Positions 53,402 through 64,000 of a stretch of DNA of 64,000 nt are shown piece by piece. The position numbers were made by a program, and so were the translations under genes. Location: assembly GCF_011742875.1 (NCBI RefSeq), contig NZ_JAAQTL010000002.1, forward strand, positions 372,001 through 436,000. Direction: 5' to 3'. The first letter of the stretch is position 1; every line of letters begins with the position of its first letter. The DNA is from Luteibacter yeojuensis. Its GTDB lineage: Bacteria; Pseudomonadota; Gammaproteobacteria; Xanthomonadales; Rhodanobacteraceae. Under the pieces are notes generated by a model. The model was not told the DNA's origin and made no database searches. It saw nothing but the letters and a program-made list of their open reading frames with translations.

Positions 53402-54439
53402 CTACAGGTACAGGTGGGCGATGGCCAGGGCGGTCTTGTAGGGTTCCGGATCGTTGCGGTTGGTCAGCAGGACCACCGTCAGGCGGCGGTCGGGATAGCG
53501 GACGATCACGTTACGGAAACCGATGGTCTCGCCCGAGTGCCACACGGAGTCGCCGGTGATGCGCCAGCCATAACCGTATTCCACCGTGGGATCGTCCGTG
53601 CGCGTGTGCGGCGTGAACGCGGCCGCCCGGGACGATTCGCTGAGCAACCGGTCGCCGTAGAGCGCCGCGTCCCAGCGCGCCATGTCGTCGATGGACGAAT
53701 AGATGCCGCCGTCGCCGAGCACCGAGCTGGTCATGCTCTGGTCGGTCCGCACCCAATGGCCGCCTTCCTCGCTATAGCCGTAGGCGCGGTTGGGAACGGG
53801 CGGGCCTCCCTTCACGTAGGCCAGCGTATGGGTCATGCCCAATGGCACGAAGATGCGATCGCGCAGGAAATCCTGGAACGACGTGCCTGAAGCCTTCTCG
53901 ACGATGAGCGCCAGCATGGCGTAGCCGCCGTTGCTGTAGCGATACGACGTGCCCGGGGCGAAGTAGAGGTGGTCGGTCTTCGCCATCAGCGCCAGCACGT
54001 CCTTGTCGCGCAAGGGAACGGTCGTATCCGCCGGCATCACGTCCTCGTAATCGACCAGGCCGCCCTGGTGGCTGAGCAACTGGCCGACTGTGATGGCATC
54101 GGCCGCGGGGGGAAGCCCGGGAAGCCACCGACGCGCCCGGTCGTCGAGGGAAACCTTACCGTCCTGCACGAGAAGCAGGATCGCCGCGGCGGTGAACTGC
54201 TTGCTTACGGATGCCAGCCGGTAGTCGGTCTGCGGCGATGCCGGCACGCGCTTTTCGAGGTCGGCAAACCCGTAGCCGCGCCGTACCAGCGGCACGCCGT
54301 CGCGGACCACCAGCAGCGAGGCACCGGGCCCGTGGCCGTCGTAACGCGCCATCAGCGCATCCACCGATGTATCGGGCGACGGCCTGGCGGCACAGGCGGC
54401 CAGCAGGATGCCGGCGGCAAGAAGGACGGCGGGTCGCAT
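53402..54439 (-). CDS. Lipoprotein serine hydrolase (class C beta-lactamase family)
   Basis: 345 residues. Signal with lipobox (LAAGILLAAC). Active-site motifs of the S12/beta-lactamase fold are SVSKQFTAA (SxxK, Ser near residue 77), YSNGGYAML (YxN, near 170) and HSGETIGFRN (HxG, near 303). This family holds DD-peptidases, D-aminopeptidases, esterases and AmpC enzymes. Given the adjoining dipeptidases, a D-amino-acid peptidase role is favoured. It begins 2 nt after the VanX-like gene. Confidence 0.88.
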   Translation of the reverse strand: MRPAVLLAAGILLAACAARPSPDTSVDALMARYDGHGPGASLLVVRDGVPLVRRGYGFADLEKRVPASPQTDYRLASVSKQFTAAAILLLVQDGKVSLDDRARRWLPGLPPAADAITVGQLLSHQGGLVDYEDVMPADTTVPLRDKDVLALMAKTDHLYFAPGTSYRYSNGGYAMLALIVEKASGTSFQDFLRDRIFVPLGMTHTLAYVKGGPPVPNRAYGYSEEGGHWVRTDQSMTSSVLGDGGIYSSIDDMARWDAALYGDRLLSESSRAAAFTPHTRTDDPTVEYGYGWRITGDSVWHSGETIGFRNVIVRYPDRRLTVVLLTNRNDPEPYKTALAIAHLYL

Positions 54440-54441
54440 GC

Positions 54442-55143
54442 TCACTCCACGGGAACGTCGTAGATGGTGTCGGCGGCCGCGGCGGACGGCAGCGAGTAGT
54501 GCCACCATTCCTGCGGGTAATTGACGAACCCCTCTGCCGCCATCGCGCGGAGCAGGCGCTGCCGGTTCGCGCGCTGTGCGGCGTCGATGCCGGGAGACGC
54601 GGTATGCGCGCGCGGATCGAAGAAGTCGAAGTCCGTGCCCATGTCCAGCGGCGTGCAGCGGTCGCCATCGCAATGCATGAGCGTGAGATCGACGGTGGCG
54701 CCGCGACTGTGCCCGGAGACGGGCGCGATGTATTCGCCCAGCAGCTTGTCCTTGTCGAGGTTCGGATAGTGCGCGGCCTTCGTCCGCGTGTCGGACAGAT
54801 CGCCCGCCCAGCGGACGAAGTGCGCCACCGCGCGCGCGGGGCGATAGCAGTCCCAGAGCCGCAGGCGGTAACCCTCCTTGCGCAGTTCGCTCTCCACCCG
54901 CGCCAGCGCCTCGGCGGCGGTCGTGCGGAGGAAACACTTCGGCGCGCGGTAACCGTCGACGACGACGCCGGTGAAGTTGTCGCTGCCCGCGTAATGGATG
55001 GTTTCCGCGATATCCGGCACCAGCGACCGGATATCCGTCAGGCCGGCTTCCGCGGGCGTGCGCGCCGGCGAGACGCGCGGGGGCGCATCCGTCGCGTGGG
55101 CGCTAAGGGCAAGCGCGCACGCGAGTGAAATCCAGGTCTTCAT
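54442..55143 (-). CDS. M15 family D-alanyl-D-alanine dipeptidase (VanX/DdpX-like)
   Basis: 233 residues with a short signal peptide (MKTWISLACALALSAHA), so exported. Zinc motif SGHSRGATVDLTL (SxHxxGxxxD) near residue 149 and the catalytic EWWHYS near 217. The YRPARAVAHFVRW arginine segment matches VanX-type substrate binding. The family hydrolyses D-Ala-D-Ala; E. coli DdpX lets cells use it as a nutrient. Its start lies 41 nt inside the upstream fusion gene in another frame, indicating tight coupling. No vanH or vanA genes are present, so resistance is not implied. Confidence 0.9.
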   Translation of the reverse strand: MKTWISLACALALSAHATDAPPRVSPARTPAEAGLTDIRSLVPDIAETIHYAGSDNFTGVVVDGYRAPKCFLRTTAAEALARVESELRKEGYRLRLWDCYRPARAVAHFVRWAGDLSDTRTKAAHYPNLDKDKLLGEYIAPVSGHSRGATVDLTLMHCDGDRCTPLDMGTDFDFFDPRAHTASPGIDAAQRANRQRLLRAMAAEGFVNYPQEWWHYSLPSAAAADTIYDVPVE

Positions 55144-57745
55144 AGTCGTTGCTGAAGTCGGCATCGGGATCGACCTTGGTGAGTCGCAGACGGTCGGGCG
55201 CGGCGAGATCGAGCCAGGGCTCGGCATCCATCCGCGTGCCGTTCCACTCTACGAGGTAACGCGTGCCCACGCGCTGGAGCGTGCCGGTCATGACGGGCGA
55301 ACGTGCCGCGGCGAAACCCACGCCGCCTTGCACCGGACAAATGCTCACCTCGCCGAACCACGGATCGCGCCATACGCCGAGCAGGGCCTTCGCTCCGGCT
55401 GCCGAGGCCGCGGCGCGCGACGAGGTGTCGGGCGCCCGCGAGGCGCCGGGAGCCGAGGCTTCGGCGGCGACACGGTCCGCGTACTCGCCTACCGTATGTC
55501 TCTCCCCGGGGGCCGTGAAGCGCTTCAGGATGGCTTCGGCGAGCGTGTCGCGAGCGTCCTCGCCGCCGCCGTTCATCATGATCACGAAGCCGCTGCGCTG
55601 CCCGGGCAACAGGCTGAGCGTGGAGTACATGCCGGACAACGTGCCCGTATGCGACACGCTCCATTGGCCGTCCACGTCCGCGAGTCGCCAGCCGTATCCG
55701 TAGCCGTACAGATGGGTGTCGTTCCAGGCCTTGCGGCGCTGGCCGACCGGCATCGGATTCTGGATCGACCACAACGGCTCGCGCTGCTTCGCATCGAGCC
55801 AGGCCCGCTGGGAGGCGTCGGGCGTCAGCCAGTTGCCCGCCCAGCGCAGCATGTCGTCGAGATCGCAGCGCACGCCGCCGGCCGCCGCCGAGGTTATCGC
55901 GGGAATCGTCGACGGGTCGGCGTTCGTCACCTCGTTGCCGTGCTCGCCATGGCGGTGCGGCTGGGCGACGTTACCGATGCCGTCACGCGACCAGCTGCCG
56001 ACCTGGCAGCGGGAGAGGCCGAGCGGCTCGAACACCTCGCGGCGAAGAAGGGTCTCGTAGGGAGCGCCACCGGCCGCCGCGGCCACTTCGCCCGCGACGA
56101 CGTACAGCAGGTTGTCGTAGGCATAGCGCGAGCGGAAGCTGTGCTCCGGCTTCAGGTACGCGAGCCCGGCGAGGATGTCCTTGCGCGTGAACCGGTTCGG
56201 CTCCGGCCACAGCATCAGGTCGCCCGCGCCTTCGCGCAGGCCGCTGTTATGGATCAACAGGTCGCGCACCTGGATCTCGCGCGTCACCCATGGGTCGTTC
56301 ATCCGGAAGTCCGGCAGGTACTTCACCACCGGGTCGTCCCAGCGCAGCTTGCCGGCGGCCACGAGGCGCGCCAGCAAGGCCGTGGTCATCGCCTTGCTGT
56401 TGGAAGCGATCTTGAACAACGTGCGGCTGTCGACCTTGCGACCGTCCGTTTCGGCCAGCACGCCGGCCGTACGCGTGTAGACCACCCTCCCCTCCCGGAT
56501 CACGCCCACGGCGATCCCGGGAATGTCGTAACGGGCGATGGCCTCGTCCACCAGCGTGTCCAGCGATGCGCTGGACGCGGCTTCGTCCGCGGCCCAGACG
56601 CGCAAGAGATTGCCGCTCCAGATCTTCGCGATGTCCGCATCGGAGAAGCCGCGTCGCTTGAGCCCCGCGGTGACGTTGCGTGTCTCGGACGCATCCATCC
56701 ACCCGGTGATCTCGCCCCCGCCGTCGAAGTCGGAGGCGATCCCCACATGGTCGATGCCGGCGACCTTCACCATGTGCTGGATGTGATCGAGGAAATCGTC
56801 CAGCGTCGCCAGCGGATGTTCGCGCTGGATCGCCTTCATGCCTTCGATGTAGGAAGGCAGGTAATCGTGCTTCTCGCTGTCGTAAGCCTTGTCGCCGGCT
56901 CCTTCGACCACGCGCTTCTGCAAGGCCTTTTCGGCCGCCTCGCGGGCGGGATCCTTCTTCAGGAATTCCTTGTATGCCACCGCCTGGATCACGCCACCGT
57001 TGGCGGCGATCGCCTTCAGCAGGTCGTCGGGCAGGTTGCGCGGATGATCGGTGATCGCGCGCGCGGAGGAATGCGAGGCGATGATGGGCGCGGTGGAGAG
57101 CGCCAGCACGTCGCGCACGCAGGCGTCCGAGGAATGCGAAACGTCTACCATCATGCCCAGCGCGTTCGCCCGCCGGACCACCTGGCGGCCGAAATCGCTC
57201 AGGCCGAGGTTGCTGTCGGGCTTGTCGCCCAGTTCCTTGCTCGGCAGGGAACTGCCGCAGAGGTCGTTATTGCCCACATGCACCAGGCCGACGTAGCGCG
57301 CGCCACGCGCGTAGGCGGCGTCCAGCCGTTTCAGGTCGTGGCCCAGCGAATAGCTGTTCTCGATGCCGATCATCGCGGACAGGCGCCCGGCGGCCTTGTT
57401 CGCACGGACGTCGTCCGGCGTGCGCGCCAGCCGGATCTGGTCCGGGTAACGCGCCAGCATGAGGTCGATGCCGTCGTACTTCCGCGCCGCCTGCGCCACG
57501 GCCTTCGCATAGCCCGCCTTCGTCAGCGGGCCCTGCTCGACATAGATGACGAAAAAAGCCGCATCGAGGCCGCCGCGGCGCATCTTCGGCAGGTCCACCT
57601 TGAGCGGACCGTCCTTGCCGGCGTCGAACTTGGGGTCGTGCATGTACGACAGGGGAATGTCGACATGCGTATCCAGGGTGAGGGGATGGTCCTGCGCCTG
57701 CGCCGCCGCGCAGAAGAGCAAGGCCAGGCCGAGGGTTCGCTTCAT
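55103..57745 (-). CDS. M19 membrane dipeptidase fused to a serine hydrolase
   Basis: 880 residues with signal peptide (LALLFCAAAQAQ). Residues about 20-385 are an M19 (renal dipeptidase) domain with all metal ligands visible: HVD in DTHVDIP (27-29), Glu129 in IGIENS, His in VDVSHSSD and IIASHSSARA, and the terminal Asp in IASDFDGGG. From about 395 to 745 a complete beta-lactamase/penicillin-binding-like hydrolase follows, with SNSK (near 447), YDN (near 541) and HTG (near 698). A tail of about 130 residues (LLGVWRDPWFGEVSICPV) resembles the C-terminal domain of such hydrolases. M19 enzymes cleave L,D- and D-containing dipeptides. A repeat element sits between this gene and the TonB receptor upstream. 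Confidence 0.9.
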   Translation of the reverse strand: MKRTLGLALLFCAAAQAQDHPLTLDTHVDIPLSYMHDPKFDAGKDGPLKVDLPKMRRGGLDAAFFVIYVEQGPLTKAGYAKAVAQAARKYDGIDLMLARYPDQIRLARTPDDVRANKAAGRLSAMIGIENSYSLGHDLKRLDAAYARGARYVGLVHVGNNDLCGSSLPSKELGDKPDSNLGLSDFGRQVVRRANALGMMVDVSHSSDACVRDVLALSTAPIIASHSSARAITDHPRNLPDDLLKAIAANGGVIQAVAYKEFLKKDPAREAAEKALQKRVVEGAGDKAYDSEKHDYLPSYIEGMKAIQREHPLATLDDFLDHIQHMVKVAGIDHVGIASDFDGGGEITGWMDASETRNVTAGLKRRGFSDADIAKIWSGNLLRVWAADEAASSASLDTLVDEAIARYDIPGIAVGVIREGRVVYTRTAGVLAETDGRKVDSRTLFKIASNSKAMTTALLARLVAAGKLRWDDPVVKYLPDFRMNDPWVTREIQVRDLLIHNSGLREGAGDLMLWPEPNRFTRKDILAGLAYLKPEHSFRSRYAYDNLLYVVAGEVAAAAGGAPYETLLRREVFEPLGLSRCQVGSWSRDGIGNVAQPHRHGEHGNEVTNADPSTIPAITSAAAGGVRCDLDDMLRWAGNWLTPDASQRAWLDAKQREPLWSIQNPMPVGQRRKAWNDTHLYGYGYGWRLADVDGQWSVSHTGTLSGMYSTLSLLPGQRSGFVIMMNGGGEDARDTLAEAILKRFTAPGERHTVGEYADRVAAEASAPGASRAPDTSSRAAASAAGAKALLGVWRDPWFGEVSICPVQGGVGFAAARSPVMTGTLQRVGTRYLVEWNGTRMDAEPWLDLAAPDRLRLTKVDPDADFSNDYEDLDFTRVRACP

Positions 57746-57762
57746 TCCTGCCTTCCTTCACA

Positions 57763-57846
57763 TGTAGGAGCCGCTACAGCGGCGAGAAGCCCACGGAGCG
57801 ATGAAGCGGCGAGGCAGATCCCCTCGCCGCCATGGCGGCTCCTACA
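57763..57846. repeat. BIME-like paired inverted repeat, copy 12
   Basis: Left arm TGTAGGAGCCGCTACAGCGG, right arm CCGCCATGGCGGCTCCTACA, central block AAGCCCACGGAGCGATGAAG. It fills the gap between the TonB receptor stop and the fusion-dipeptidase start inside a probable operon, 7 nt past the receptor stop. Confidence 0.88.
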
Positions 57847-57853
57847 TCGAACC

Positions 57854-60847
57854 TCAGAAATCGATCGAGACCGTCAGCTGCCCGAAGCGCGGCGGCTGGA
57901 AGCGGATCGGCTGCAGGTACGTGTTGCTGTTGCTGCCGATCGACGTCTGCAGGTCCTGGTCGACGCCGGTGGTGCGCTGCTGGTTCAGCAGGTTGTACAC
58001 GGCGAACTTCACGCGGAGGTTGTTCTTCTCGTCCAGCGGCAGCAGGTAGGTGATGCTGGCGTTGAGGTTGAAGGTCCAGGGCGTGCGCTTCGCGCCGCGC
58101 GAAGACTCGACGTACACGCGGTTCTCGGAGACCGGATCGGCGCAGTTCTCCACGCAGATGAAGTAGCTGTGGTAGGAGGTCTTGTCGTAGGGATTACCGA
58201 CGCCGTAGGCGGTGATCGGGCTGCCCGATAGCGCCGTGACGTCGGCGCCGACCTGCCACTGCTTGTTGATCGCGTAGGTGCCGCGCAGCTTGAACTGGTG
58301 GCGGTGATCGTTCGGCAGGTAGCCACCCGACAGGTTCACCCACGGGTCGTCGAAGTTCTCGGTACGACCGGTATCGTCGAAGTTGGTGTCCGAGTTGACC
58401 GGGCCTTCCGCGTTGCCGCGGCTCCACGAAAGCACGTACGACGCGTTGAGCATCCACTTCTCGTCCCAGGCACGGTCCACCTGGAATTCCAGGGAGCCGA
58501 ACGTGCGCCGGGGCTTCTTCCAGCCGCGCTGGCCGAGGTAGTTCCCCGAGGCGTCGTACAAGGCCCAACCCTGCTTCGATGTGTCGATGGTGAGGTAGCC
58601 GTCCGGCGTGCCGTCGCAATTGGTGTCGCCGTAGACGGTGACGTTGCGGCCTGGGTTGCCCATCACGTAGCCGATGTAGCCGTCGCCACCGCATTGCGGC
58701 GTGGCGCTGATCTCCATGTCGTCGATGGCGTCGTGCAGCTTGCGGTAGGTACCGCTCACGCCCCACGACCACTTGTCGGTGATCATCTGCTGGAAGCCCA
58801 GGATGGCCTCGTCCTGGTAGACCGGGTCCATGTTCTTGTCGACTTCGGCACGCAGGTCGCCCACGGTGCCGTTACCCTGCGACGTATCCACCGCGCCGAT
58901 CTGCTGGCCGAGGATCGGCACGGCATACTGCGATCCGTTGCGCTCGAGGATCTGGTAGCCCTCGAAGGTGTAGAACGTGCGCTCGTCGAGCAGGCCGCCG
59001 GCCTGCTTGATGTTGATCACGTTGGCGACCGGCAGGTAATAGCGGCCGAGGTTGCCGAAGATCTTCGTCCTGCCGTCGCCGTTGAGGTCCCAGGAGAAGC
59101 CCAGGCGCGGCGCGATCATGTTATCGACCTTGATGTAACTCTTGCCTTCGGCGGTCTTGTTGTCGAAGGAGTCGCTGCGCAGGCCCACGTTCAGCAGGAA
59201 GTCCGGCGTGATGTTCCAGTTGTCCTCGATGTAATACGCGTTGTTAGTCGTCTCGAAGGTGCCCCCGATGTTGTAACGGCGCTGGCGCACGTACATGTCG
59301 TAGCCGGGCGGCATGACGCCGTCGTTCTCGATGGTGGAGCCCGGATCGGCATGGACGATGCTGTAGTAGTACTCGCCCGGCCCCGGGTAATGACGCTGAT
59401 ATTCCGAGGTGTCCACCTCGTGGTCGTAACCGAAGCGGACGAGGTGGTCGCCCAGCGTCCATTCGAAGTCGGCGCGACCCTGCTTGCGGGTATCGTTGCG
59501 CTTCTCGACCATCGTGCTCGCACTGCAGCCCAGCGGCACATCCGGGGCGTCCGCGCTGTCGTCGATCCGCACCGGGTTGCACTCGGCGTCGGCGAGGCCG
59601 TGGGTGAAGGACTCGCGCTCGTTCCGTCCATACATCAGTTTCATCGACAGGCTGTCGACGAGGTAGCTGGTGAAGGTGCCGTTCCAGTTCCTGCCGCCCG
59701 TGTCGCTGGTGATGACGTCGTTCTTCGTACCCTTGGTATGCGTGGCGAAGTCGTACGAATAGACCGAGCCCTCGTTCCGGTCCTTGTCCGAGAAGGCCAT
59801 GAACTCGAGCAGGTTCTTGTCGTTGATGTGCCAGTCGATCTTGGTGCCCCAGAAACCGGAGTCGGTGTCGTTCTGGGTGAGCAGGGTGCCTTCGTCGTTG
59901 GTGTTCTGCGGGGTGTAGCCGCGCGCCTCGTACATGGCGAAGAAGAACAGCTTGTCCTTCACGATGGGACCGGACGCGTACACGTTCATCTTCGTGCGCG
60001 AGTAGTGGTCCTCTGACGACGTGATGTAGCGCTCGCCGTCCCAGTAGCGGTTTTTCGTGGTGGCCTGCCAGGCGCTGGGCTCGAAGGTCATCTCGGCGCC
60101 GGCCTTGAACTCGTTGGTACCCGAACGGGTCACCGCGTTCACCACGCCGCCGGTAGTACGGCCGAATTCCACCGAGTAGCCGCCGGTCTTGACCTGGAAT
60201 TCCTGGTAGAAGGCGAACGGCGCCTCGGAAAAGCCGTTGCGGTTGTAGAAGTCGGTGACGTTGAGGCCGTTCACGTAGAACGAATTCTCGGCGACGGACG
60301 AACCGCCGAAGGAGATGCCGCCGAAGCCGGCATTGCCCTTGTTCACCGCCGGCGCCAGGAGCGCCACGGACTGCACGTTCTGGTCGACCGGCAGGCGGCG
60401 GATTTCCTCGCGGCTGACGTTCGTCGCGATTTCGGTGGAACTGACGTCCACCGCGTTGATGACCACCGGCGCGCTGACCTGCACGCCTTCGAGTTCCGTG
60501 GTGGCGGCATTGCGCTCGACCAGGTTCACCGTGGTGGCGTTACCGAGGCTCACGTTCACCTCGGTGGTGGTGCTCACCGGCTTGCCGTCCTTGCTGCTGT
60601 CCAGCTGGTAATGACCCACCGGCAGGAACGGGAAACGGAAGTTGCCGTCGGCATCGGCGGTTACCGTGCGCGTCAGCCCGGTACCCGGGTCGCGCACGGT
60701 GACCGTGGCGCCCGCCTTGGTGCGGCCGACGATCGAGCCGTCGGTGTTCGCGCCCCAGGCCACGCCGGACACGGCCAGGCCCAGTCCGATCGCCAAGCAC
60801 AAGGCGCCGTGGCGCAAAGCACGCCGGTTCGTCTTGATATCCCCCAT
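57854..60847 (-). CDS. TonB-dependent receptor, Oar type
   Basis: 997 residues. A signal peptide (LAIGLGLAVSGVAWGA) is followed by a carboxypeptidase-regulatory-like domain (SIVGRTKAGATVTVRDPGTG, about residues 35-115). Then come the plug (EEIRRLPVDQNVQSVALLAP, near 150; TTGGVVNAVTRSGTNEF, near 232) and a long beta barrel ending in Phe (QLTVSIDF), as outer-membrane proteins do. Oar-type receptors are frequent in Xanthomonadales and are tied to peptide or glycan uptake and to protein secretion in some. Placement before the dipeptidases suggests peptide import. Confidence 0.93.
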   Translation of the reverse strand: MGDIKTNRRALRHGALCLAIGLGLAVSGVAWGANTDGSIVGRTKAGATVTVRDPGTGLTRTVTADADGNFRFPFLPVGHYQLDSSKDGKPVSTTTEVNVSLGNATTVNLVERNAATTELEGVQVSAPVVINAVDVSSTEIATNVSREEIRRLPVDQNVQSVALLAPAVNKGNAGFGGISFGGSSVAENSFYVNGLNVTDFYNRNGFSEAPFAFYQEFQVKTGGYSVEFGRTTGGVVNAVTRSGTNEFKAGAEMTFEPSAWQATTKNRYWDGERYITSSEDHYSRTKMNVYASGPIVKDKLFFFAMYEARGYTPQNTNDEGTLLTQNDTDSGFWGTKIDWHINDKNLLEFMAFSDKDRNEGSVYSYDFATHTKGTKNDVITSDTGGRNWNGTFTSYLVDSLSMKLMYGRNERESFTHGLADAECNPVRIDDSADAPDVPLGCSASTMVEKRNDTRKQGRADFEWTLGDHLVRFGYDHEVDTSEYQRHYPGPGEYYYSIVHADPGSTIENDGVMPPGYDMYVRQRRYNIGGTFETTNNAYYIEDNWNITPDFLLNVGLRSDSFDNKTAEGKSYIKVDNMIAPRLGFSWDLNGDGRTKIFGNLGRYYLPVANVINIKQAGGLLDERTFYTFEGYQILERNGSQYAVPILGQQIGAVDTSQGNGTVGDLRAEVDKNMDPVYQDEAILGFQQMITDKWSWGVSGTYRKLHDAIDDMEISATPQCGGDGYIGYVMGNPGRNVTVYGDTNCDGTPDGYLTIDTSKQGWALYDASGNYLGQRGWKKPRRTFGSLEFQVDRAWDEKWMLNASYVLSWSRGNAEGPVNSDTNFDDTGRTENFDDPWVNLSGGYLPNDHRHQFKLRGTYAINKQWQVGADVTALSGSPITAYGVGNPYDKTSYHSYFICVENCADPVSENRVYVESSRGAKRTPWTFNLNASITYLLPLDEKNNLRVKFAVYNLLNQQRTTGVDQDLQTSIGSNSNTYLQPIRFQPPRFGQLTVSIDF

Positions 60848-60892
60848 CTCCCCACTCCCATAAGATGATGTTTCGGGTTGTCTGCTGCCCCG

Positions 60893-62443
60893 TCAGTGCA
60901 TCGTGCCGCCGGCCCCTTCCGGCGTGTCGACACGATGCCAACGGAAGTCGTAATCCCACTGGTCGAAATACAGGTTGCCGCCCTTCCACTCGACTTCGCC
61001 GCGTTGCGAATCGACCGTCTCCGAGCGGAAGAAGGTCTTCGCCGGCACGAACGGCCGCGAGTAGTCGTCGTTGAAGGCGATGCGATAGGCGTCCAGGCCG
61101 CCGAGGTAGAACCACTCGAGCTTGTCGTCGCCCGGCTTTGCGTTCGCCCCGGCCGCGAGGCGGCCGAAGGTCACGTCCATCGGTACCCATCCATACGGGG
61201 CGAGGTACACCTGCCCCCAGTCGTGGATGTTGTTGTATTTGCCATCGGAGAAGATCCAGCCGGACTGCCAGCGCGCCGGAATGCCGTTGAGGCGCAGCAG
61301 CGTCATCAGCAGCAGGGTCTGCTCGCCACAGTCGCCGTGGCCGGCGTGCAGCGTGTAGTCGCCGATGTTGGAGAGGGTGGAATACTCGCGCGCGCCGGCC
61401 CAGGGAATGGTGTCAACGGCGGCGAACAGCTTCTGCGCGATACGGTAGGGATTGGTCTCGTTACCCACCGCACGCTTCGAGTAGGCGCGCATGGCGTCGG
61501 TGAACACGATGTGCGGCGCACGCTCGGCGACGAAAGGCGCCAGTTCGGGTGTGATCGGCGCACGAACGACCTTCGCGGGATCGATGTCGACGTAGCGGGC
61601 GTACAGCGTCAGCTCGTAGGTGATCGAGAATGCCGTGGGCTTCCCTGCCACCGCCTTCTTCTCGAGGTAAGCGGTGCGCTGCATCGTCGACTCCGGGGCG
61701 ATCCGCGCACCCGCGGGTTCGCTGGACACCAGGCGGATGTCCTCCTGCTGGCCCTCGATCGCACGCGGATAGGGAATCCACGCACGGATCGTCTCGCCGG
61801 CCGGCACGGCGTCCGCCTCCACGGTGAGGACCTGGGTCACGCTCTCGCGCCGCGGGAGCACGCTGCTGGTGTGCTTCGCCAGCGCGGCTTCACGCACGGC
61901 GCGGTGATGATCGTTGAGGACCTCGTTCGGGCCGTCGTCGAACGGCTTCGGGTCGCTGCGCCGCGCGCGGGCCTCGGCGCTGATGCGGAAGAGGTTGCCC
62001 GGGGAGCGCTTGAAATACAGCGTGCGGCCGTCGATCGTCTGCTTCTCGAGCAGGCCCGCCGCATCCCACTTGGCGAACTCGGCGTCGGTGAGGTCGGGTA
62101 TCTGCTTGCGCAGGCGCGACTTCACCGCATCGGCATCGAGGGTGAAATCGATGAGGATGCGGCGCATGCGCTCGCGCTGGAATGCAAGGGTGTTGCGTTG
62201 GGCGGGAGTCAGGCCGGGCTGCGCGAGGGCCTTGGCGATGGTCGCCTCCGCATCCTTGAAATGGCCCGCATCGATCTGCTTCGACGGGACATCGCCGACA
62301 GGGTCGCTGCCCACCAGGCCGCCCGACTCGCCGGTCGCCTGACGCATCGCCGCGTCGGCAGACGGCGGAACCAGCGAGGACGATGCCAACAGGCACGCCG
62401 CCAGCGCGGAGCGAATCGTCGCGTTTCGTAAAGCCGCTTTCAC
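60893..62443 (-). CDS. Secreted transglutaminase-like domain protein
   Basis: 516 residues; a GTG at 62443 gives a signal peptide (LAACLLASSSLVPPSADA). The C-terminal half holds a transglutaminase-like core: catalytic Cys in GHGDCGEQTLLL near residue 370, His in YNNIHDWGQVYL near 407 and Asp in VPMDVTFG near 421. Such domains act as cysteine proteases or amidases as well as crosslinkers; cleavage of peptide or peptidoglycan material is plausible. First gene of the probable leftward operon; the gap to the receptor is 45 nt. Confidence 0.85.
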   Translation of the reverse strand: MKAALRNATIRSALAACLLASSSLVPPSADAAMRQATGESGGLVGSDPVGDVPSKQIDAGHFKDAEATIAKALAQPGLTPAQRNTLAFQRERMRRILIDFTLDADAVKSRLRKQIPDLTDAEFAKWDAAGLLEKQTIDGRTLYFKRSPGNLFRISAEARARRSDPKPFDDGPNEVLNDHHRAVREAALAKHTSSVLPRRESVTQVLTVEADAVPAGETIRAWIPYPRAIEGQQEDIRLVSSEPAGARIAPESTMQRTAYLEKKAVAGKPTAFSITYELTLYARYVDIDPAKVVRAPITPELAPFVAERAPHIVFTDAMRAYSKRAVGNETNPYRIAQKLFAAVDTIPWAGAREYSTLSNIGDYTLHAGHGDCGEQTLLLMTLLRLNGIPARWQSGWIFSDGKYNNIHDWGQVYLAPYGWVPMDVTFGRLAAGANAKPGDDKLEWFYLGGLDAYRIAFNDDYSRPFVPAKTFFRSETVDSQRGEVEWKGGNLYFDQWDYDFRWHRVDTPEGAGGTMH

Positions 62444-62492
62444 CGTTCGGTATCCCCGATGCAACCGTGGTGGATGGACGTGCTGTGCTGGC

Positions 62493-62521
62493 TGTGTAAC
62501 ATGCTTGCAAAGCGCGGTCAA
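62493..62521 (-). promoter_or_regulatory. Promoter of the transglutaminase-led operon
   Basis: Read leftward: -35 TTGACC (62521-62516), 17-nt spacer, -10 TACACA (62498-62493) with a TGT extension before it. It overlaps the opposing rightward promoter. Confidence 0.4.
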
Positions 62522-62532
62522 TAATTTATGCT
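62505..62532 (+). promoter_or_regulatory. Promoter of the DUF819 gene
   Basis: -35 TTGCAA (62505-62510), 16-nt spacer, -10 TATGCT (62527-62532). It shares bases with the leftward promoter, so RNA polymerase can bind only one at a time. Confidence 0.4.
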
Positions 62533-62547
62533 TCGGGCTACTTCGTT

Positions 62548-62563
62548 AGGAATAGATATTCCT
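62548..62563. promoter_or_regulatory. Palindromic operator candidate
   Basis: AGGAATA-GA-TATTCCT, a perfect 7-bp inverted repeat, about 16 nt downstream of the rightward -10. It is placed where a repressor would block the DUF819 promoter. No regulator gene is visible next to it within the window. Confidence 0.45.
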
Positions 62564-62598
62564 GACGACCGTCGTGACACCACCCGGGGAGGGGACGC

Positions 62599-63747
62599 GT
62601 GATCCAGTCGGTTTGGCCTTATCTGGCCGTGATGCTGCTTGCGGCGGGGTTCTGGCCGGCCATCGAGCGCCGTTTTGCCTGGAAGGCCTTCGACATCCTT
62701 CCGCCCATCGTGCTCACCTACCTCACCGTCACGGCGCTCTCCGTGGCCGGCGCATGGACCGCCTCGCCGGACATCCACCAGGCGCAACAGGTGCTCGTGG
62801 CGCGCATGGTGCCCGCGTTGCTCTTCCTGCTGATGATCAACTGCGACCTGCGCGCCATCCTGGCGCTCGGGCCGCGCGTGCTCGCGGTCTTCGCCTGCAC
62901 CTCGGTCGCGCTGTTCACGGCGTTCGTCCTCACCTACCTCCTCTACCGGCACTGGATGCCCGGCGACGAATGGAAGCCCCTCGCGTCGCTTTCGGGGAGC
63001 TGGATGGGGGGCACGGCGAACATGATCGCGGTGAAGCAGGCGATCGGGATGTCCGACACGTCGCTCGCAACGACGCTGCTCACCGACGCTCTTTGCTATT
63101 CCATGTGGGTCGTGGTGCTGTTCTCCGTCGCCCGCCTTGCACCGGCGTTCAATCGCTGGACGCGGGCCACGTCGAGCGCCGATATCACCGTGGCCGAAAC
63201 CGCCGTCCGGGCACCCGCCACGGGCGACAGCGTGCTCCTCTGGCTGGGGCTGGCCGTGCTGGTATCGACGCTCTCGGCCAACCTCGGCGCCAGGCTCCCG
63301 ATAGGGAACATGGTGTCGGCCACGACCTGGACGATCCTCATCGCCACGACGGCGGGACTGGTGGCGGCGCACACGCCGCTCGCGCGCCTTCCCGGCGCCC
63401 AGTCGGTATCGAGCGCCCTGCTGATCTCGGTGGTCGCGGTGCTCGCCTCGCAGAGCAGCTTCGCCGGCATCGCCGCGGCGCCGGTCTACCTCCTCGCCGG
63501 CGTCACCGTCATCGCCATCCACGCGTCGCTGCTTTGCATCGCCGCGCGGATCTTCCGCTTCGACCTCTATCTCTGCGGCATCGCCTCGCTCGCCCATATC
63601 GGCGGGGTGGCGGCCACCCCGGTGCTGGCCGCCACGTATTCGCGTTCGCTGGTGCCGGTGGGCATCCTGCTCGCGCTGCTCGGCTATATCCTCGGAACCG
63701 GATTCGGCCTGGTCGTCTCCGCGGTGCTATCCGCGCTGGCCTCCTGA
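62599..63747 (+). CDS. DUF819 family membrane protein
   Basis: 382 residues with about ten to twelve hydrophobic segments (first: VWPYLAVMLLAAGFW). The duplicated core has SGSWMGGTANMIAVKQAIG near residue 130 and GIASLAHIGGVAATPVLAA near 330, small-residue signatures of the DUF819 (YjcL-like) family, which are thought to be transporters. GTG at 62599 with GGGGAGGGG upstream. Given the neighbours, export or uptake of amino acids or dipeptides is a guess. Confidence 0.85.
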   Translation: MIQSVWPYLAVMLLAAGFWPAIERRFAWKAFDILPPIVLTYLTVTALSVAGAWTASPDIHQAQQVLVARMVPALLFLLMINCDLRAILALGPRVLAVFACTSVALFTAFVLTYLLYRHWMPGDEWKPLASLSGSWMGGTANMIAVKQAIGMSDTSLATTLLTDALCYSMWVVVLFSVARLAPAFNRWTRATSSADITVAETAVRAPATGDSVLLWLGLAVLVSTLSANLGARLPIGNMVSATTWTILIATTAGLVAAHTPLARLPGAQSVSSALLISVVAVLASQSSFAGIAAAPVYLLAGVTVIAIHASLLCIAARIFRFDLYLCGIASLAHIGGVAATPVLAATYSRSLVPVGILLALLGYILGTGFGLVVSAVLSALAS

Positions 63748-63760
63748 CAAGGAACTCGCT

Positions 63761-64000
63761 ATGAACACGTTTCGTCATACCGTCCTCGCAACCCTGCTGG
63801 CCCTTTCACTCGCCGCCCCGCCCGTCCTTGCGGCGGAGATGAAGGTACCGCCATCCGGCATCGTGGGCGTCGGGGACGCGCAGCTCACCCCGGACTTCTG
63901 GGTGGCGAAACTCACCGACGGCGACAAGGTGGTGATGGACCGCGCCGCCATCGCGGCATTGAACGAACGCGTCGCGACCCTCGATCCTTCCATGCACGAC
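63761..64000 (+). CDS. Secreted protein, N-terminal part (possible SH3/NlpC-P60 peptidase)
   Basis: 80 residues are visible; the gene runs off the window. The ATG at 63761 has AGGA upstream and is 13 nt after the DUF819 stop, so the two are probably co-transcribed. A signal peptide (ATLLALSLAAPPVLA) is clear. The mature start (VGDAQLTPDFWVAKLTDGDK then VVMDRAAIAALNERVATLD) resembles, from memory, the N-terminal stabilising domain of SH3-containing NlpC/P60 (C40) cell-wall peptidases. The catalytic part is outside the window, so the assignment is tentative. Confidence 0.55.
   Translation, partial: MNTFRHTVLATLLALSLAAPPVLAAEMKVPPSGIVGVGDAQLTPDFWVAKLTDGDKVVMDRAAIAALNERVATLDPSMHD

Follow-up and report, generated by a model that had tools for sequence, protein, structure and literature searches.

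The right-hand end of a 64,000-nucleotide (nt) stretch of the genome of the soil bacterium Luteibacter yeojuensis (hereafter the window; contig NZ_JAAQTL010000002.1, G000:C2:372001-436000) carries two divergent operons that encode a TonB-dependent outer-membrane receptor, a series of peptidase-family proteins, transporters and a regulator, and that probably serve to dismantle and use the peptide part of peptidoglycan. As the rightward operon runs beyond the window, the contig was read on past position 64000, and all coordinates below continue those of the window (window coordinate = L002 coordinate + 52000, L002 being the stretch read round this locus). Families were assigned with Pfam profiles, and all Pfam scores given for window genes exceed their cut-offs. 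Export signals were judged by eye, and the start codons of the rightward genes and the GTG start of the transglutaminase-like gene are my own choice. The features are as follows.

53402..54439, minus strand: S12 (beta-lactamase-fold) lipoprotein hydrolase (PF00144, 243.8 bits; lipobox LAAC by eye)
54442..55143, minus strand: VanX-like M15 D-Ala-D-Ala dipeptidase, probably exported (PF01427 Peptidase_M15, 155.8 bits, cut-off 27)
55103..57745, minus strand: M19 dipeptidase-S12 fusion, probably exported (PF01244 Peptidase_M19, 337.4 bits, and PF00144 Beta-lactamase, 217.9 bits, in one open reading frame)
57762..57847, no strand: REP-like inverted repeat (25-nt arms, 88% complementary)
57854..60847, minus strand: Oar-type TonB-dependent outer-membrane receptor (OMP_b-brl_4, 96.4 bits; CarboxypepD_reg, 51; TonB barrel, 38.5; Plug, 32.7)
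60893..62443, minus strand: putative cysteine peptidase of transglutaminase fold, exported by eye (Transglut_core, 64.2 bits)
62543..62568, no strand: palindrome in the gap between the two operons, a candidate operator of both (12-nt arms, 92% complementary)
62599..63747, plus strand: DUF819 membrane protein that may import peptide products (PF05684, 247.8 bits)
63761..65155, plus strand (L002:11761-13155; window part 63761..64000): SH3b-NlpC/P60 peptidase that looks exported (SH3_6 and NLPC_P60)
65177..66268, plus strand: YkfB-like L-Ala-D/L-Glu dipeptide epimerase of the enolase superfamily (338.7 bits to YkfB 1jpm/1tkk)
66279..67124, plus strand: MurR/RpiR-type regulator (HTH_6, 76.6 bits; SIS, 44.6)
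67136..67897, plus strand: YkuD-domain protein (profile match)
67894..69129, plus strand: SDF symporter (profile match)
69126..70253, plus strand: DauA-like D-amino-acid dehydrogenase using flavin adenine dinucleotide (DauA, 443.7 bits)
70270..71061, plus strand: DUF347 protein (profile match)

A first-pass annotation of the window had proposed the five leftward genes, and open reading frame coordinates and Pfam bear out their order, families and spacing (gaps of 45 and 108 nt, followed by an overlap of 41 nt and a gap of 2 nt). It had seen four clear export signals; by eye, all five products look exported. The VanX-like protein aligns with VanX 1r44 (147.1 bits) and contains both zinc-site segments, SGHSRGATVD (SxHxxGxxxD) and EWWH (ExWH), which occur in 43/46 and 44/46 of its homologues; it scores below the VanX equivalog cut-offs (181.2 of 320 bits for NF033115; 123.6 of 176 for PRK10178). 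The M19 domain of the fusion, the only M19 match in the genome, aligns with PDB 2rag (233.0 bits) over the HxD, Glu, His, His and Asp segments, which I take to be catalytic, and M19 homologues from the loci described below have HxD in 19/19 cases and IEN in 13/19. Both S12 domains contain SxxK: the lipoprotein has SVSK (S.SK in 10/16 homologues), with Flp 4gdn (116.9 bits) and D-aminopeptidase 1ei5 (99.5 bits) as its PDB relatives, and homologues of the S12 part of the fusion have S[NVT]SK in 46/64. In all of these pattern counts a miss may represent a variant motif or a wrongly called reading frame. The transglutaminase-like protein found no match in a PDB sequence search, and its Cys, His and Asp are invariant across 12 such proteins.

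The M19-S12 gene is a lineage-specific fusion of neighbours. M19 and S12 share one frame in the Luteibacter-type loci L002, L004, L006 and L042 and occupy separate frames in the other eight of the 12 loci where they lie side by side. Much of the 108-nt gap between the Oar and M19 genes is taken up by the REP-like repeat, which occupies the site where relatives carry lysA (as in L006 and L044); the first-pass annotation makes no mention of it. Further copies of this repeat, TGTAGGAGCCGC or its complement, lie in the window at 1332/1396, 4370/4441, 5108, 14073, 18327/18400 and 40221.

The rightward genes from DUF819 through the dehydrogenase are tightly packed on one strand, with gaps of 10-21 nt or 4-nt overlaps. 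The DUF819 assignment of the first-pass annotation agrees with the profile match, and the gene cut at position 64000, suspected to encode an NlpC/P60 peptidase, has both SH3_6 and NLPC_P60 domains when read to its end. This protein is closest to PDB 3m1u, by which it fits the gamma-D-Glu-diamino-acid type. It has the Y-x-W motif of the YkfC subfamily ahead of the catalytic Cys in a DCS segment (YGW...RDCSG), as do 91/103 homologues by pattern. A further feature of that subfamily is an Asp at position 256 of BcYkfC (excerpts of PMC2954226). By position count, the window's protein has Asn there, and the 91 homologues scored have Asn in 89 and Asp in 2.

A dipeptide epimerase, which the first-pass annotation had suggested seeking downstream of 64000, is the next gene. 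Aligned to 1jpm/1tkk, it keeps R24, K160/K162, K267, the metal ligands and D321/D323, presumably with the same roles as in YkfB (Arg24, the catalytic lysines, the metal ligands and the D-x-D pair), and R24, K160, K162, D190, E218, D243, K267, D321 and D323 are invariant across four diverged homologues. Because it scores below the equivalog cut-offs (255.3 of 500 bits for NF041118; 113.2 of 343 for PRK15129), I call it YkfB-like only. The RpiR-type regulator likewise scores below the cut-off for MurR proper (PRK15482, 85.8 of 408 bits). A PDB sequence search with the YkuD protein returned chance-level rows only; its predicted model re-aligned best to chains of Pgp2, Bd1075 and Csd6, and 45/50 homologues have the catalytic-site pattern.

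Just past the rightward operon lies a second Oar-type TonB receptor gene (L002:19099-20000 continued at L003:2-2209, minus strand), and some 12 kb beyond the locus an arginase-family hydrolase gene (L003:9643-10518, minus strand). Promoter-like sites (one, at 62496-62525, against 1.6 expected) and terminator-like sites (8 against 7.6 expected) were not used as evidence.

The same neighbourhood is conserved in other Xanthomonadales, as the first-pass annotation had proposed to check. Within an order sample of 121 genomes, the epimerase was found at an E-value of at most 1e-40 in 39, and the stretches round all 39 (L002 and L004-L041, some ending at contig edges) were read. Of the 39 loci, 32 have NlpC/P60 just upstream, 29 have VanX, 26 YkuD, 26 Oar, 22 the transglutaminase-like gene, 22 the S12 domain of the fusion, 21 S12, 20 RpiR, 14 SDF, 11 DUF819, 11 M19, 9 LysA, 9 an amino-acid permease, 8 the dehydrogenase and 3 an AmpD-like amidase. 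These counts use strand and distance limits; Oar requires at least 20% coverage, and the two S12 queries cross-match. A larger set of 113 distinct loci gives NlpC 105, Oar 90, RpiR 85, YkuD 80, transglutaminase-like 79, VanX 61, SDF 57, DUF819 33, LysA 32, M19 29, permease 24, dehydrogenase 19 and amidase 12, the far genes being undercounted because the named-genome stretches reach only 10 kb upstream. A strong M15/VanX match occurs in 34 order-sample genomes. The epimerase is present in 32 of them, 29 of which have the two genes no more than 15 kb apart; this co-occurrence exceeds chance, by p values that ignore kinship.

Among the best 80 of 575 relatives in the named-genome scan are Luteibacter, Dyella, Rhodanobacter, Frateuria, Fulvimonas, Lysobacter, Luteimonas, Pseudoxanthomonas, Vulcaniibacterium, Stenotrophomonas, Xanthomonas, Dokdonella and Tahibacter and, outside the order, Rheinheimera, Pseudidiomarina, Lacimicrobium and Bowmanella; the nearest named relative among the matches listed is Luteibacter sp. 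SG786 (98% epimerase identity). Minimal loci without Oar and RpiR also exist (L022, L033-L035, L037 and L038), such as L034, in which M19 and VanX face NlpC-epimerase-YkuD. None of the other locus genes surrounds the epimerase in L032, L039 and L041, and L040 has S12-type matches only. After YkuD, the SDF symporter is replaced by an amino-acid permease in 24/113 distinct loci (L110:13061-14395, for example). In Rheinheimera maricola (L107), NlpC, the epimerase and RpiR lie near a gene for an LppC/LpoA-type lipoprotein, and the starts of neighbouring genes resemble, by eye, the mra/dcw cell-wall cluster.

Two genes found in relatives indicate the likely substrate. In 32/113 distinct loci, including that of L. 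rhizovicinus, the minus operon contains lysA, encoding diaminopimelate decarboxylase (the L050 protein scores 467.2 bits against a TIGR01048 cut-off of 297.9). All 11 genomes tested have another LysA match in a long frame (874-1469 amino acids), that of G106 exceeding the cut-off only together with its neighbours and three of the frames containing a stop. The locus lysA is an extra, stand-alone gene in 9/9 tested genomes that carry it there, and in the two without it, G000 (the present genome) and G074, no other stand-alone LysA match exceeds the cut-off. An AmpD-like amidase lipoprotein (Amidase_2, 93.9 bits; 84.3 of 143 for the AmpD equivalog, hence below its cut-off) is encoded at most 14 kb from the epimerase in 12/113 loci. 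Together, lysA and the amidase in relatives point to meso-diaminopimelate (mDAP) and muramyl peptides.

A conserved palindrome lies in the divergent gap that is common to the two arms, and the gene for an RpiR-type regulator lies in the locus. The palindrome's core, AGGAATA-GA-TATTCCT at 62548-62563, is the only site in the genome with no more than one mismatch; at two mismatches there are three further sites, and a reversed control pattern gave two per strand. Scored in 100 of the 113 distinct loci, the looser pattern [AG]GAAT-N4/5-ATTC[CT] occurs at most 300 bp before the first plus-strand gene in 53/89 loci with RpiR and in 0/11 without (Fisher p 1.2e-4, kinship ignored). With shuffled gaps the figure was 0.115 of 100, and the remainder of the loci had 7 matches in 1.96 Mb. 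The Rheinheimera-type loci L107, L114, L117 and L119, whose RpiR proteins show 34-37% identity, have GGAATATTT[CG]ATTCC before NlpC.

Receptor, enzymes, transporter genes and regulator are clustered and conserved, as in a TonB-dependent nutrient utilisation locus, and the whole is probably a co-regulated, TonB-linked pair of divergent operons that break down and use the stem peptides of peptidoglycan (L-Ala-gamma-D-Glu-mDAP-D-Ala, in some cases with a further D-Ala). The Oar receptor would carry fragments into the periplasm. There, going by family, the YkuD-fold protein would trim the D-Ala beside mDAP as an L,D-carboxypeptidase, the VanX-like enzyme would split D-Ala-D-Ala, NlpC/P60 would cut gamma-D-Glu-mDAP and M19 would cut L,D-dipeptides. 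Other bonds may be targets of the S12 and transglutaminase-fold proteins. The DUF819 protein and the SDF symporter would move the products inward. In the cytoplasm, the epimerase would convert L-Ala-D-Glu to L-Ala-L-Glu for ordinary peptidases and the DauA-like dehydrogenase would oxidise D-amino acids, and in relatives LysA would convert mDAP to lysine. Growth on such peptides is predicted. The RpiR-type protein, which co-occurs with the palindrome, would bind it as a repressor and control both arms. The 36 loci with RpiR that have no exact match to the palindrome pattern weigh against this regulatory role, as does the derivation of the loose pattern from these same loci. The first-pass annotation had proposed a pathway from capture to cleavage of muropeptides, and the NlpC/P60 protein, the epimerase and the conserved neighbourhood lend it support; the uptake of muropeptides by Oar and the in-cell action on peptidoglycan I infer.

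More tentatively, and as something possible rather than probable, the locus could be to peptidoglycan what polysaccharide utilisation loci are to polysaccharides, with an Oar receptor dedicated to muropeptides, exported stem-peptide enzymes, a DUF819 protein importing L-Ala-D-Glu and an RpiR repressor sensing the sugar-phosphate half of the fragments, by which Xanthomonadales (Luteibacter, Dyella, Rhodanobacter, Lysobacter) would feed on the walls of lysed neighbours. An effector of MurNAc-6-phosphate made for the MurQ route is unsupported, since no MurQ match in the genome exceeds the cut-off. DUF819 proteins are placed among the CPA/AT transporters (excerpts of PMC8396727). As a general marker of peptidoglycan use, DUF819 fails: in a phylum sample of 299 genomes it has matches in 24 (21 over the cut-off), and the seven genomes whose epimerase scores 350 bits or more all have it, but the two are linked in 2/7. 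No peptidoglycan neighbours were recognised in six DUF819 stretches outside the locus, judged by open reading frame starts only. An independent pairing is described for Neisseria meningitidis, where a DUF819 gene follows that of an M15 metallopeptidase in 75 genomes (excerpts of PMC12671195).

Alternatively, the locus may handle the cell's own wall, its exported enzymes degrading shed stem peptides and keeping muropeptide signals low while the receptor serves other peptides. Such a role would suit the periplasmic look (by eye) of most of the hydrolases, the existence of minimal loci without Oar and RpiR, and the effect of Bacillus ykf enzymes on beta-lactamase induction (excerpts of PMC3305447). 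I consider it unlikely, since recycling is already provided for in this genome by AmpG (434.7 bits) and Mpl (643.8 bits), and the extra LysA, the D-amino-acid dehydrogenase and the amino-acid transporters point to catabolism. That ordinary recycling has its own genes favours feeding on fragments, with which some handling of own turnover is still compatible. The first-pass annotation had also thought of LdcA and AmpG as possible members of the locus; both are absent there, and two S66 genes and one AmpG lie elsewhere in the genome. It is very improbable that the locus serves D-amino-acid peptides of another kind, for instance nonribosomal lipopeptides or the antibiotics of neighbours: the candidate ligand range of Oar leaves room for this, and S12 D-aminopeptidase-like enzymes, M19 enzymes and DauA act on a variety of D-residues, but the gamma-D-Glu-diamino-acid-type NlpC/P60 protein, the YkfB-like epimerase, and the lysA and AmpD-like amidase of related loci fit peptidoglycan. 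It is equally hard to credit two adjacent, unrelated operons, of which the left would scavenge peptides in general and the right would act on peptidoglycan, for although the transglutaminase-like gene, Oar and RpiR are missing together in minimal loci, these loci keep VanX (and M19 too in L034 and L037) beside NlpC-epimerase-YkuD, and both arms share one gap and one palindrome.

The proposed utilisation of stem peptides through a TonB-linked locus has partial parallels in known systems. The ddp genes of E. coli, for D-Ala-D-Ala use, combine the VanX-type DdpX with an ATP-binding cassette (ABC) transporter; here too a VanX-type dipeptidase lies beside transport genes, but it is one of many enzymes, is probably exported, and is accompanied by a TonB receptor instead of an ABC transporter. 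A MurR-type regulator controls the use of N-acetylmuramic acid in E. coli, and the present HTH_6-SIS regulator similarly adjoins a peptidoglycan-use operon, but beside peptide rather than sugar genes, below the MurR cut-off and in a genome with no MurQ over the cut-off. In Bacillus ykfABCD, an L-Ala-D/L-Glu epimerase likewise adjoins an SH3b-NlpC/P60 endopeptidase for murein-peptide use (excerpts of PMC3305447 and PMC2954226). The present locus differs in having no S66 LdcA or ABC component among the scanned locus genes and in an NlpC/P60 protein that looks exported and does not have the YkfC Asp256. It adds a TonB receptor, an RpiR-type regulator together with the conserved palindrome, a D-amino-acid dehydrogenase, and M15, M19, S12, transglutaminase-fold and YkuD proteins that are probably exported. 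The Caulobacter N-acetylglucosamine cluster likewise brings together receptor, inner-membrane transporter, catabolic enzymes and a likely local regulator, but it serves the sugar part whereas the present locus would serve the peptide part (excerpts of PMC13046382). Extending from a receptor to amino-acid catabolism, the present locus is consistent with the working of a nutrient utilisation locus. No description of it was found in the literature searched, a weak negative as most subscription papers lie outside its coverage; PMC6090828 lists a 'dipeptide epimerase' and no more.

If the proposed role in stem-peptide use is true, it would give a nutrient function to some dozen genes that form a conserved locus across a large bacterial order, and testable substrates to the Oar receptor, the DUF819 transporter and the transglutaminase-fold peptidase. 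Such enzymes could also alter the pools of muropeptides, which act as signals; in Bacillus licheniformis, for instance, a peptidoglycan dipeptide triggers beta-lactamase induction (excerpts of PMC3305447). Finally, it would show how a Gram-negative bacterium may use the peptide part of foreign peptidoglycan, beyond recycling its own.

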